From positions 62,001 to 126,000 of the forward strand of contig CABYPD010000002.1 of the NCBI GenBank assembly GCA_902520835.1: 64,000 nucleotides of DNA, written 5' to 3'. The translations under genes were made by a program, and so were the position numbers. This DNA is from an uncultured Bacteroidota bacterium (GTDB taxonomy: Bacteria; Bacteroidota; Bacteroidia; Flavobacteriales; Flavobacteriaceae). Positions within the stretch are counted from its first letter, which is position 1; the number at the start of each line of letters is the position of its first letter. This document shows, in pieces, positions 44,056 to 58,700 of this stretch. Below the pieces are notes generated by a model that saw only the letters and a list, made by a program, of their open reading frames with translations, had not been told where the DNA came from and made no database searches.

Positions 44056-44063
44056 TATTTTTG
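44056..44063 (+). promoter_or_regulatory. -7 element of tmRNA promoter (TATTTTTG)
   Basis: Exact TAnnTTTG match, preceded by TCTG (44034-44037) at 18 bases, a one-mismatch -33 box. Transcription would start near 44070, about 20 bases before the mature tmRNA 5' end, consistent with RNase P trimming. Confidence 0.5.
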
Positions 44064-44089
44064 CATCCTATTGAGTTCATTGAAATTTT

Positions 44090-55286: not shown

Positions 55287-56385
55287 AGTTGAAGCTCCTG
55301 GACGAGTAAATTTAATTGGAGAACACACTGACTACAATGGTGGATATGTGCTCCCTGGTGCAATAAATAAAAAAATAACTTTCGAAATCTCCAAATCATC
55401 ATCTAATAATTGTGAAGTTTTTTCTAAATCATTAAATGATTCATTTTTTTTTAAATTAAAAAATATTAAAAAAAGTAAAATTCATTGGCAAAATTATATT
55501 TTGGGTACTATTGATTTTTTTAAATTAAATGGACACAAACTAAAAGAATTTAGATGCAATATTAATTCTAATCTTCCTGTTGGATCAGGTATAAGTTCAT
55601 CTTCAGCGTTGATTTCTGGATTATCAAGAGCAATTATAGAATTTAATGACTTAAGGTATGATAAAATTGATATAATCAAAATAGTAAGTTATGTTGAAAG
55701 TAAATTTATAGGATTGAATGGTGGAATAATGGATCAATTCACAATTAATTATGGAAAAAAAGATCACCTCATTTTATTAAATTGCACAAATTCAAATCAT
55801 AATTATATAAAGTTTAAAAGCGACATTTACACTATTCTACTATTAAATACTAATGTAAAACATAGCTTAATTGACTCAGCTTATAATCAAAGAGTTAATG
55901 AGTGTAAAACAGCTGAGAAAATCCTAAATATTCATTATAATGAAATTAGAAGATTAGCAAATTATTCAAGTGATAAATTGTATAGAGTAAAAAATAAATT
56001 GAATTCAAAAATTTATAACAGGGCAAATTTTGTGATTCACGAAAATAAAAGAACATTGAATGCTGCAGATCTGTTAAAAAAATCAAAATTTAAAGATTTT
56101 GGTAAATTAATGTATAAATCTCACGAAGGGTTAAAAAACTTGTATGAGGTTAGTTGTCCAGAATTAGATTTTATTGTTGATTTTACTAAGGATTTGAAAT
56201 ATGTTTTAGGCTCAAGGATGATGGGAGGAGGTTTTGGAGGTTGTACCATAAATTTGGTTGAAAAAAAACATTTGGATAGTTTTATTAAGTTGATATCTAA
56301 AAACTATTCTGAAAATTTTAATAAAAAATTATCATCCATCAAGGTTTGTATCGGTGACGGTGTATCTTGGAGAAGATTTACGTAG
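55276..56385 (+). CDS. galK: Galactokinase
   Basis: Phosphorylates galactose to galactose-1-phosphate. 369 residues of the GHMP kinase superfamily: [19 protein letters not shown] near the N-terminus, [13 protein letters not shown] (phosphate-binding loop) and the C-terminal GGGFGGCTI. It overlaps galE, so the two are a galactose operon; galT and galM are not in the window. Its stop overlaps the convergent rny by eight bases. Confidence 0.95.
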
Positions 56386-57931
56386 CTACATTCACTGCTC
56401 TTGTTTCTCTGATTACAGTTACTTTTACCTGGCCAGGGTAAGTCATTTCAGTTTGTATTTTTTGAGAAATTTCAAAAGATAATTTTTTGGCCTTTTCATC
56501 GTCAATCTTTTCACTTTCAACCATAACGCGTAACTCTCGACCAGCCTGTATTGCAAAAGCTTTATTTACACCATCAAAACTGTATGCAATATTCTCTAAA
56601 TCTTTTAATCTTTGTATGTAACTTTCCATTACCTGCCTCCTAGCACCAGGTCTTGCACCTGAAATAGCATCACACACTTGAACAACTGGTGAAATCATGT
56701 TGTTCATTTCAATTTCATCATGATGGGCACCAATTGCATTACAAACATCACTTTTCTCACCATATTTTTCAGCCCATTGCATTCCAAGTAAAGCATGCGG
56801 AGTCTCTGTCTCTTCTTCAGGAACTTTACCAATATCATGCAATAATCCAGCTCTTTTAGCAAGCTTGGGGTTTAAACCAAGTTCAGAAGCCATAATTCCA
56901 CATAATTTTGCGACTTCTTTTGAATGTTGTAATAAATTTTGGCCATATGATGATCTAAACCTCATTCTACCAACTGCTTTAACTAAATTAGGATGTAATC
57001 CATGTATTCCTAAATCAATTACAGTTCTCTTACCAATCTCAATAATTTCGTTTTCTATTTCTTTTGATGTCTTTTTAACGACTTCTTCAATTCTTGCAGG
57101 ATGGATTCTGCCATCAGTAACTAACTTTTTTAATGATAAGCGTGCTATCTCTCGTCTAACAGAATCAAAACAAGAAAGTATAATAGCTTCGGGGGTGTCA
57201 TCAACAATTATTTCCACACCTGTAGCACTTTCAATAGCTTTTATATTTCTTCCTTCTCGACCAATTATTCGGCCTTTTATATCATCAGATTCTATGTTAA
57301 AAACTGAAACACAATTATCAATCGCTTCCTCTGTTCCTAATCTTTGAATTGAACCTATAACAATTTTTTTGGCTTCTTGTTTAGCAGACAATTTAGCTTC
57401 ATCAATTATGTTTTGTGAAATTTCCAATGCTTGAGATTTAACCTCATCCTTTAAAATTTTAAACAATTCATCCTTAGCTTGTTTAGCAGAATAACCAGCA
57501 ATTTTTTCAATTTCTTTTACTTGATTTCTGAGAACCTTATTAATCTCTAGTTTCTTTTTTTCAACTGTTTCATTTTTTTTATTAAAACTTTTGATTTTTT
57601 CTTCAAATTCAGCTTTTAATTTTTCTATTTTTTTTAATTTTTGGTTGACTTCGGTTTCTTTTAGCTTTAAGTATTGATTTTTATCATTATGTTCTGCATT
57701 TTTTGAAAGTATATATTTTTCATGTTCAGACTTTAATTCTAAAAATTTTTCTTTTGCCTGAAGGATTTTATTGTTCTTTATATTCTCAGCTTCTGAATGC
57801 GCTTCATTTAATATTTTATTAGCACGAGATTTAGCATAATCAATTGATTTTTTATTTAAAATTTTATTGATTGTAAAAAAAATAATTACTCCAATTAAAG
57901 ACCCAATTACTATATAAATTAATTCACTCAT
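56378..57931 (-). CDS. rny: Ribonuclease Y
   Basis: Membrane-anchored endonuclease that starts mRNA decay. 517 residues: an N-terminal transmembrane helix (about 3-20), a long charged coiled coil (25-200), a KH RNA-binding domain ([21 protein letters not shown]) and an HD domain ([15 protein letters not shown]) that carries the catalytic metal site. It is downstream of zapA and the 6S-like RNA, with that RNA's T-run just ahead of its start. Confidence 0.96.
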
Positions 57932-57942
57932 GATTTTATTTT

Positions 57943-58104
57943 AAAAAAAAACCTACATACAGATTTATTGTATAAACTCCATTTATACAAGTTTAGAGCT
58001 AACTAAATATTCGATAATCCTTAAAAAAGGCACGCTCTAGGATTTAGACTCACTCTTTCTAATTTATTAGCGTTGAGTTTACCAAATTAAAATCTGATGT
58101 AGGT
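57943..58104 (-). ncRNA. ssrS: Probable 6S RNA (flavobacterial type)
   Basis: The 197-base gap between zapA and rny folds into one long hairpin on the minus strand. The outer arms AAATCTGATGTAGGT (58090-58104) and ACCTACATACAGATTT (57951-57966) pair along about 15 bases with a single bulge. Inside are TAGAGC/GCTCTA arms (57994-57999 with 58034-58039) and a perfect nine-pair hairpin, TTGTATAAA/TTTATACAA (57968-57990), in one side of the central region. Nine T residues follow the outer arm, a terminator. 6S RNAs look like this (closing stem, open bubble, apical stem) and lie next to zapA in many bacteria. Length about 155-162 bases. Confidence 0.7.
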
Positions 58105-58128
58105 AATATAATTTTATTTTAATGAACG

Positions 58129-58413
58129 TTAAGAATCTAAACTCTGAATAACTAAATCATTAATTGAATTTAACTTATCGTTAATTTCATTAATGCTATA
58201 CCTTTCACTTTTTGAAAACTTTTCATACTGACTAATGATTTGTAAAGCACACATTGCCAATGTATCTTGTTTATCCTGAACAGCATATTTTTTTTCATAT
58301 TCGTTCACCATGTTATTGATTTGCTTAGAAGCTTTTCTAAGAATTTCCTCTTGAGATGGGTTAACATTTAAAGGATATATTCTGTTAGCAATATTTAGTT
58401 TAATTTTTTGCAT
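58129..58413 (-). CDS. zapA: Cell division protein ZapA
   Basis: Cross-links FtsZ filaments in the Z-ring. 94 residues from the ATG at 58413, which fits the family; an in-frame upstream ATG at 58437 would overlap the preceding gene. The N-terminal half IKLNIANRIYPLNV (beta-strand pair, conserved Pro) is followed by a coiled-coil helix (EKKYAVQDKQDTLAMCALQII), the usual ZapA layout. It overlaps the previous gene by one base (TAATG). Confidence 0.9.
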   Translation of the reverse strand: MQKIKLNIANRIYPLNVNPSQEEILRKASKQINNMVNEYEKKYAVQDKQDTLAMCALQIISQYEKFSKSERYSINEINDKLNSINDLVIQSLDS

Positions 58414-58700
58414 TAAGATGTTAGCTGGACGATACAATCATCAATTTCATTAATCATTTTTTTAATTTTTCTTTTTGTTTTATTCTTATCATTACTACCT
58501 ACAATAGCTTTCCCCATTTCTAAAGCATGATATTTTTCTTTCAATTTAATAATTACATCATCCTTTTCTTTCAATATTTTTTTTACATTAGAAAGTTCAT
58601 TAGAAAGTTCATTATTTGAAAATTTTAAACCATTCAAGGTCTTAATTAACAACTCAGTATTACTTTTTAATTCTTCAATTATAGTTAAACTTTCTTTCAA
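58413..58700 (-). CDS. Small coiled-coil protein upstream of zapA (TTG start)
   Basis: 95 residues, almost all helical and coiled-coil (heptad LKSNTELLIKTLNGLKFSNNELSNELSNVKKILKEK...), then a basic NKTKRKIKKMINEIDDCI tail. The start is TTG at 58700; an upstream stop follows within 12 bases. It overlaps zapA by one base, so it is translated with it. Position and shape suggest a ZapB-like divisome helper; it lacks a domain I can name, so the function is open. Confidence 0.6.
   Translation of the reverse strand: MKESLTIIEELKSNTELLIKTLNGLKFSNNELSNELSNVKKILKEKDDVIIKLKEKYHALEMGKAIVGSNDKNKTKRKIKKMINEIDDCIVQLTS

Follow-up and report, generated by a model that had tools for sequence, protein, structure and literature searches.

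The question raised by this locus is what occupies the 197 bases between the genes for ZapA and ribonuclease Y, and how the product of that interval would be made. The locus lies in the window, i.e., the whole 64,000-nucleotide stretch analysed here from an uncultured marine Flavobacteriaceae bacterium, and all coordinates are positions in it. The gap covers 57932-58128 on the minus strand (rny starts at 57931 and the zapA stop is at 58129-58131). A sequence-only reading had described it as a long imperfect minus-strand hairpin and a probable 6S RNA, 6S being a small RNA known to restrain RNA polymerase. The genes and elements concerned are as follows.

56378-57931, minus strand: rny, ribonuclease Y, 517 aa (Pfam RNase_Y_N (PF12072), KH and HD)
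57943-58104, minus strand: 6S RNA (6S-Flavo type), 162 nt, beginning with closing stem P1 and ending with the T-run (RF01685, fold z -4.1, covariation)
58117-58127, minus strand: boxA-like element GTTCATTAAAA, located in the leader of 6S just past the zapA stop (motif conservation)
58129-58413, minus strand: zapA, 94 aa, ATG start (Pfam PF05164, E 1.5e-18)
58413-58700, minus strand: small charged ORF, its stop codon overlapping the start of zapA (TAATG; from the ORF list)

The last of these retrieved no Pfam match above cut-off and can be called ZapB-like by position and composition only.

The Rfam family 6S-Flavo (RF01685) matches 57974-58078 on the minus strand over the full model (1-108) and scores 94.5 bits, above the gathering threshold of 85. 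Across the whole window only two Rfam families score above cut-off, tmRNA (44090) and 6S-Flavo, so the remark that gene finders leave the RNA unnamed holds for protein-gene finders, while Rfam does name it. The conserved 6S-Flavo core described by Weinberg et al. 2010 (PMC2864571) is present, i.e., CUCAAC, GGAGUUU and the stems around the central bubble, with covariation. Where the Rfam model covers a core of 108 nt, the present locus offers the full 162-nt RNA, its terminator, a boxA-like leader and the zapA-rny setting, and the own genus adds a perfect nine-pair hairpin in the 3' bubble. The 6S-Bacteroidales family (Bacteroidales-1, RF01693), with which the RNA shares CUUGU...GGAGUUU, overlaps it over its full model at 26.1 bits, under the 60-bit cut-off, and was rejected as the better family given this weaker score. 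The canonical 6S model (SsrS, RF00013) has no direct match in 57800-58250 up to E 10; the RNA resembles canonical 6S in its layout, in the zapA neighbour known from beta/gamma-proteobacteria and in a nine-pair hairpin like the release hairpin of E. coli, but differs from it in primary sequence.

No second 6S copy was found in the genome (39 contigs, 84% complete). 6S-Flavo is present in 147 of 150 genomes of the family, including 125 of 125 of those at least 90% complete, and in 17 of 23 genomes of the own genus, all 23 of which are incomplete. By rny, the nearest named records are marine Flavobacteriaceae/Cryomorphaceae MAGs, with MED-G14 the closest at 96%.

The extent given earlier for the hairpin (57943-58104) proved exact to the base, and its outer arms of about 15 bases, perfect nine-pair inner hairpin and run of nine Ts were all found again in the minus-strand fold of 58104-57943. 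This fold has a predicted energy of -39.6 kcal/mol against a shuffle mean of -25.9 (z -4.1) and beats 200 of 200 dinucleotide shuffles. Its parts, all on the minus strand, are the following.

58091-58104, minus strand: closing stem P1, 5' strand ACCUACAUCAGAUU (outer 7 pairs 99.6% paired in 159 relatives)
58075-58085, minus strand: P2 (downstream helix), 5' strand UUGGUAAACUC, from which most of the product RNA is predicted to be copied (covariation)
58072-58074, minus strand: AAC of the near-invariant CUCAAC (conserved in a 38-relative alignment)
57982-57990, minus strand: nine-pair hairpin, strand in the 3' central bubble UUGUAUAAA (fold)
57968-57979, minus strand: P2, 3' strand GAGUUUAUACAA, with one bulged A (covariation)
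57968-57976, minus strand: nine-pair hairpin, partner strand UUUAUACAA, coinciding with bases of the P2 3' strand (fold energies)
57952-57965, minus strand: P1, 3' strand AAUCUGUAUGUAGG (fold and covariation)
57943-57951, minus strand: nine-T run directly after P1, an intrinsic-terminator-like 3' end (sequence)

The T-run after P1 is also present in relatives. Among 159 relatives, the outer 7 pairs of P1 show 106 double-changed cells against 21.8 in shuffles, and P2 is 97.9% paired with 43 double-changed cells against 9.2. The consensus structure of 38 diverse relatives has the 6S layout (P1, P2, the central bubble and an apical arm); 95.0% of its cells are paired, against 81.7% when shuffled, and double-changed cells number 217, where shuffles give 59.5. 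Five covariation measures were compared with 500 shuffles of these 38 relatives, and on each the real alignment exceeds every shuffle, in shuffles that leave relatedness unremoved; when the partners are instead slid by 1-3 columns, a control that preserves relatedness, pairing falls to 29-46%. One further reading, that UAAACUUG in the 3' bubble imitates the Bacteroidota promoter box TAnnTTTG, was rejected as unsupported: its fifth base is C in 153 of 159 relatives, and other families have CAAAUCGUG or CCCACCGUG at the same place.

On this basis we regard the minus-strand RNA of 57943-58104 as very probably a 6S RNA, as the earlier reading had proposed: the 6S-Flavo model that it had named as a check scores above its gathering threshold, and the structure, whose absence from close relatives would have spoken against the proposal, is kept with covariation in 159 relatives. 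By its sequence it is assigned to the 6S-Flavo family as a single-copy gene with the 6S layout and the order zapA-6S-rny, and the RNA itself is thus an expected member of a known family. That the hairpin is instead a cis-acting element, i.e., a leader or terminator of rny or a part of the zapA 3' UTR, is suggested by its location between two co-directional genes and by the T-run at its end. Nevertheless, the hairpin is much longer and better conserved than any terminator requires, belongs to 6S-Flavo, is retained in 15 of 159 relatives with no rny downstream and has homologues unlinked from these genes in sister families (L350, L362 and L367), which makes this explanation very improbable. 6S RNA has been seen by RNA-seq in F. 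psychrophilum (PMC9723704), and both 6S and its product RNAs have been reported in B. thetaiotaomicron (PMC7366714). By analogy, the 6S RNA described here would bind RNA polymerase and act in stationary phase.

The nine-pair hairpin behaves differently from the rest of the structure. It is paired in 92.8% of cells in the own genus against 59.8% elsewhere and has no covariation support among the 159 relatives; the suggestion that it is specific to this lineage was therefore a good one, and by sequence comparison it is essentially confined to the own genus. The hairpin and P2 are mutually exclusive because both use the P2 3' strand, and since it excludes a covarying helix, the hairpin would be an alternative state rather than a decoration. 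The predicted energies of the two states, calculated with no polymerase present, are -37.8 kcal/mol with P2 and -39.6 with the hairpin, and when the 5' strand of P2 is blocked in the prediction, the nine-pair hairpin forms while the apical helices of the 6S arm are kept. In E. coli 6S RNA, unwinding of the downstream helix leads to a 9-bp hairpin between the 3' bubble and the P2 3' strand, which contributes to the release of 6S (PMC8876501). The hairpin described here has the same anatomy, and its function is proposed by that analogy.

Following 6S biology, the RNA would mimic an open promoter and occupy the housekeeping RNA polymerase, which would then copy the 5' bubble strand (CUCAAC) into a short product RNA. 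We infer that this product starts opposite the C at 58072 (GUUGAGUUUACC...), the C of CUCAAC that lies three bases beyond P2, and that it probably begins with GUUGAGUUU. The product RNA would open P2, and the freed P2 3' strand would pair with the 3' bubble strand as the nine-pair hairpin, releasing the RNA as in E. coli. With two partners competing for it, the P2 3' strand offers a concrete candidate for a release switch, and we lean slightly towards a role of the hairpin in release from RNA polymerase. There is a sizeable, if somewhat smaller, chance that the hairpin is simply the constitutive fold of the free RNA and has no part in release: RNAfold already favours it in free RNA (mean pair probability 0.75, against 0.18 for P2), and free 6S-1 of B. 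subtilis likewise contains a hairpin in the 3' bubble (PMC8876501). A constitutive hairpin would, however, destroy P2, the helix whose covariation is seen throughout the family. Since the hairpin lacks covariation and is weak outside the genus, a role in release may be only local, and other relatives could use a UAAACU/AGUUUA hairpin instead. As a covarying element in the wider family, that second hairpin was unsupported (6 double-changed cells against 3.4).

As to how the 6S RNA would be produced, the boxA-like element GTTCATTAAAA in its leader is of most interest. Motifs were counted in the window and the fetched loci, and the relatedness of the genomes means that such counts do not represent independent events. 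Of 159 family loci, 141 carry GTTCWTW in the 45 nt that precede P1, where the flanks would predict 1.3. The motif sits 14-32 bases before the RNA in these relatives, and the 5-95% range of its spacing to P1 is 22-28 nt. In other families it occurs within 70 nt before P1 in 13 of 17 independent zapA-linked loci (0.4 expected), and class-wide its distance to P1 can be as short as 14 nt or as long as 68 nt. In the genus, the motif before 6S takes the form GTTCATT, mostly followed by AAAA (13 loci). Only two exact instances of GTTCATTRAAA exist in the window, one before 6S (58117-58127) and one immediately before tmRNA (44075-44085). The sequence GTTCATTGAAA is also found 128-134 nt before 16S, the expected place of boxA, in 11 of 11 genus genomes with a complete 16S, the own genome (L244) included.

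Judged as a boxA, GTTCATTAAAA is GYTCTTTRAMA-like, lies in the leader of a stable RNA and resembles the boxA of its own rRNA. It shares with the boxA of rRNA operons the core GTTCWTT(A/G)AAA and a location inside stable-RNA leaders, that of the own 16S among them, and differs in preceding 6S (and tmRNA); no report of a boxA before 6S was found in the literature searched. Six loci from several sister families (L349, L351 with TCCCTTTTTGGGA, L352, L354, L358 and L360) have a small hairpin that separates the boxA-like motif from the closing stem, an arrangement that recalls rRNA leaders.

For tmRNA (plus strand), a housekeeping promoter box TATTTTTG at 44056-44063 is followed by the boxA-like GTTCATTGAAA, which abuts the mature 5' end (44090). 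Here the motif is downstream of the promoter box and would therefore be inside the tmRNA transcript. Of 30 family genomes, 15 have the boxA-like motif before tmRNA (0.8 expected), and 0 of 29 have it before RNase P RNA (rnpB). Upstream of rnpB, the box TAnnTTTG is present in 29 of 29, and in 28 of these it lies 9-17 nt before the 5' end. None of the 159 relatives has this box in the 30 nt before P1 of 6S, and a housekeeping promoter directly before 6S was rejected, since TAnnTTTG does not exceed background anywhere between -120 and 0. The only Bacteroidales-1 locus seen, L350, has neither zapA nor rny as a neighbour; it lacks the boxA-like motif and carries a TAnnTTTG box of its own (TATTTTTG at -31), a single case.

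The sharing of the boxA-like motif with 16S and tmRNA, together with the lack of a standard promoter box, suggests that 6S is cut from the zapA transcript with rRNA-type antitermination. The 6S RNA would be transcribed within the zapA transcript, or from a start inside or before zapA, and this transcript would carry a boxA-type antitermination signal, as rRNA does. The precursor would then be trimmed to the 6S 5' end, and the closing stem and T9 would end the transcript. If GTTCWTW instead belonged to the promoter of 6S, and were no boxA acting in the RNA, its narrow spacing to P1 within the family would be as expected for a promoter element, but the class-wide spacing is ill-suited to one. 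Moreover, the same element is found inside the rRNA leader and downstream of the tmRNA promoter box, and the box seen upstream of rnpB in 29 of 29 is absent from the last 30 nt before 6S in all relatives. We consider the promoter explanation unlikely, and a boxA function of the leader element to have close to an even chance. A boxA-type leader raises the possibility that rRNA-type antitermination is linked to the production of 6S (and tmRNA) in a phylum in which transcription has received little study. In a broader reading, to which we give somewhat less than an even chance, the 6S RNA of Bacteroidota may ancestrally be the non-coding middle of a zapA-6S-rny unit, made by a boxA-modified (Nus) polymerase, with its own promoter acquired on leaving the unit. 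If this is true, an RNA that restrains RNA polymerase would be produced via the same antitermination signal as ribosomal RNA.

The earlier reading also held that zapA beside 6S is a recurring arrangement, and this is borne out. In the family, 158 of 159 loci have zapA as the immediate upstream neighbour in the same orientation (in the lone exception, a contig end leaves only 93 bases before the RNA) and 144 of 159 have rny downstream; zapA also adjoins 6S in beta/gamma-proteobacteria (PMC7641849). Eleven of the 15 losses of rny after 6S fall in the own genus (L032, L033, L035-L037, L039-L043 and L047). In the rny-less genus members examined, 6S faces a galK homologue instead, so rny has moved or been lost there.

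Outside the family, we read the rny upstream regions of 50 genomes. In distant members of the phylum, a strongly conserved RNA in the zapA-rny gap matches the canonical 6S model RF00013 over its full length, in L228 above cut-off (47.1 bits against 46.4) and in the others below it. As the match lies in the same zapA-rny gap, the 6S-Flavo gene is tied by position to canonical 6S. A genome-wide search with RF00013 found matches in 24 of 198 genomes, several at places readable as beside rny (G207, G186 and G317).

A new covariance model (R1), built from the own family and sister family f2 and blind to neighbours, gave full-length, individually weak matches in five of five held-out f3 gaps (E 0.002-0.02), and it also matches two distant gaps (L215, E 0.0045; L220, E 0.028). 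Over the class, 33 of 197 genomes gave a match, and 24 of the 33 belong to neither f1 nor f2. Of 21 fetched loci outside f1 and f2, 18 lie between zapA and rny, in eight families, and when 20 of the 21 were searched with Rfam, only L350 scored above cut-off, as Bacteroidales-1. These comparisons indicate that the order zapA-6S-rny is widespread in the phylum and recurs across much of it, and the zapA-rny interval is thus an address at which to seek 6S in lineages with no Rfam calls. The pair is no guarantee of 6S, as this rule fails in families f5, f8 and f9 and holds only variably in f4, most gaps there being too short. Two f8 genomes have 6S-like matches elsewhere (L362 and L367), and we read the unlinked matches as probable relocation of the gene in some families.

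The zapA-rny gaps L181-L185, L210-L228 and L347-L366 hold 6S or 6S-like RNAs that are mostly invisible to Rfam 15 or sub-threshold in it. Earlier work (Wehner et al. 2014) may already list some of these 6S genes. Apart from zapA and rny lie the 6S-like matches L350, L362 and L367, and a further one, L178 (G205, C56), is located off the contig that carries its genome's rny.
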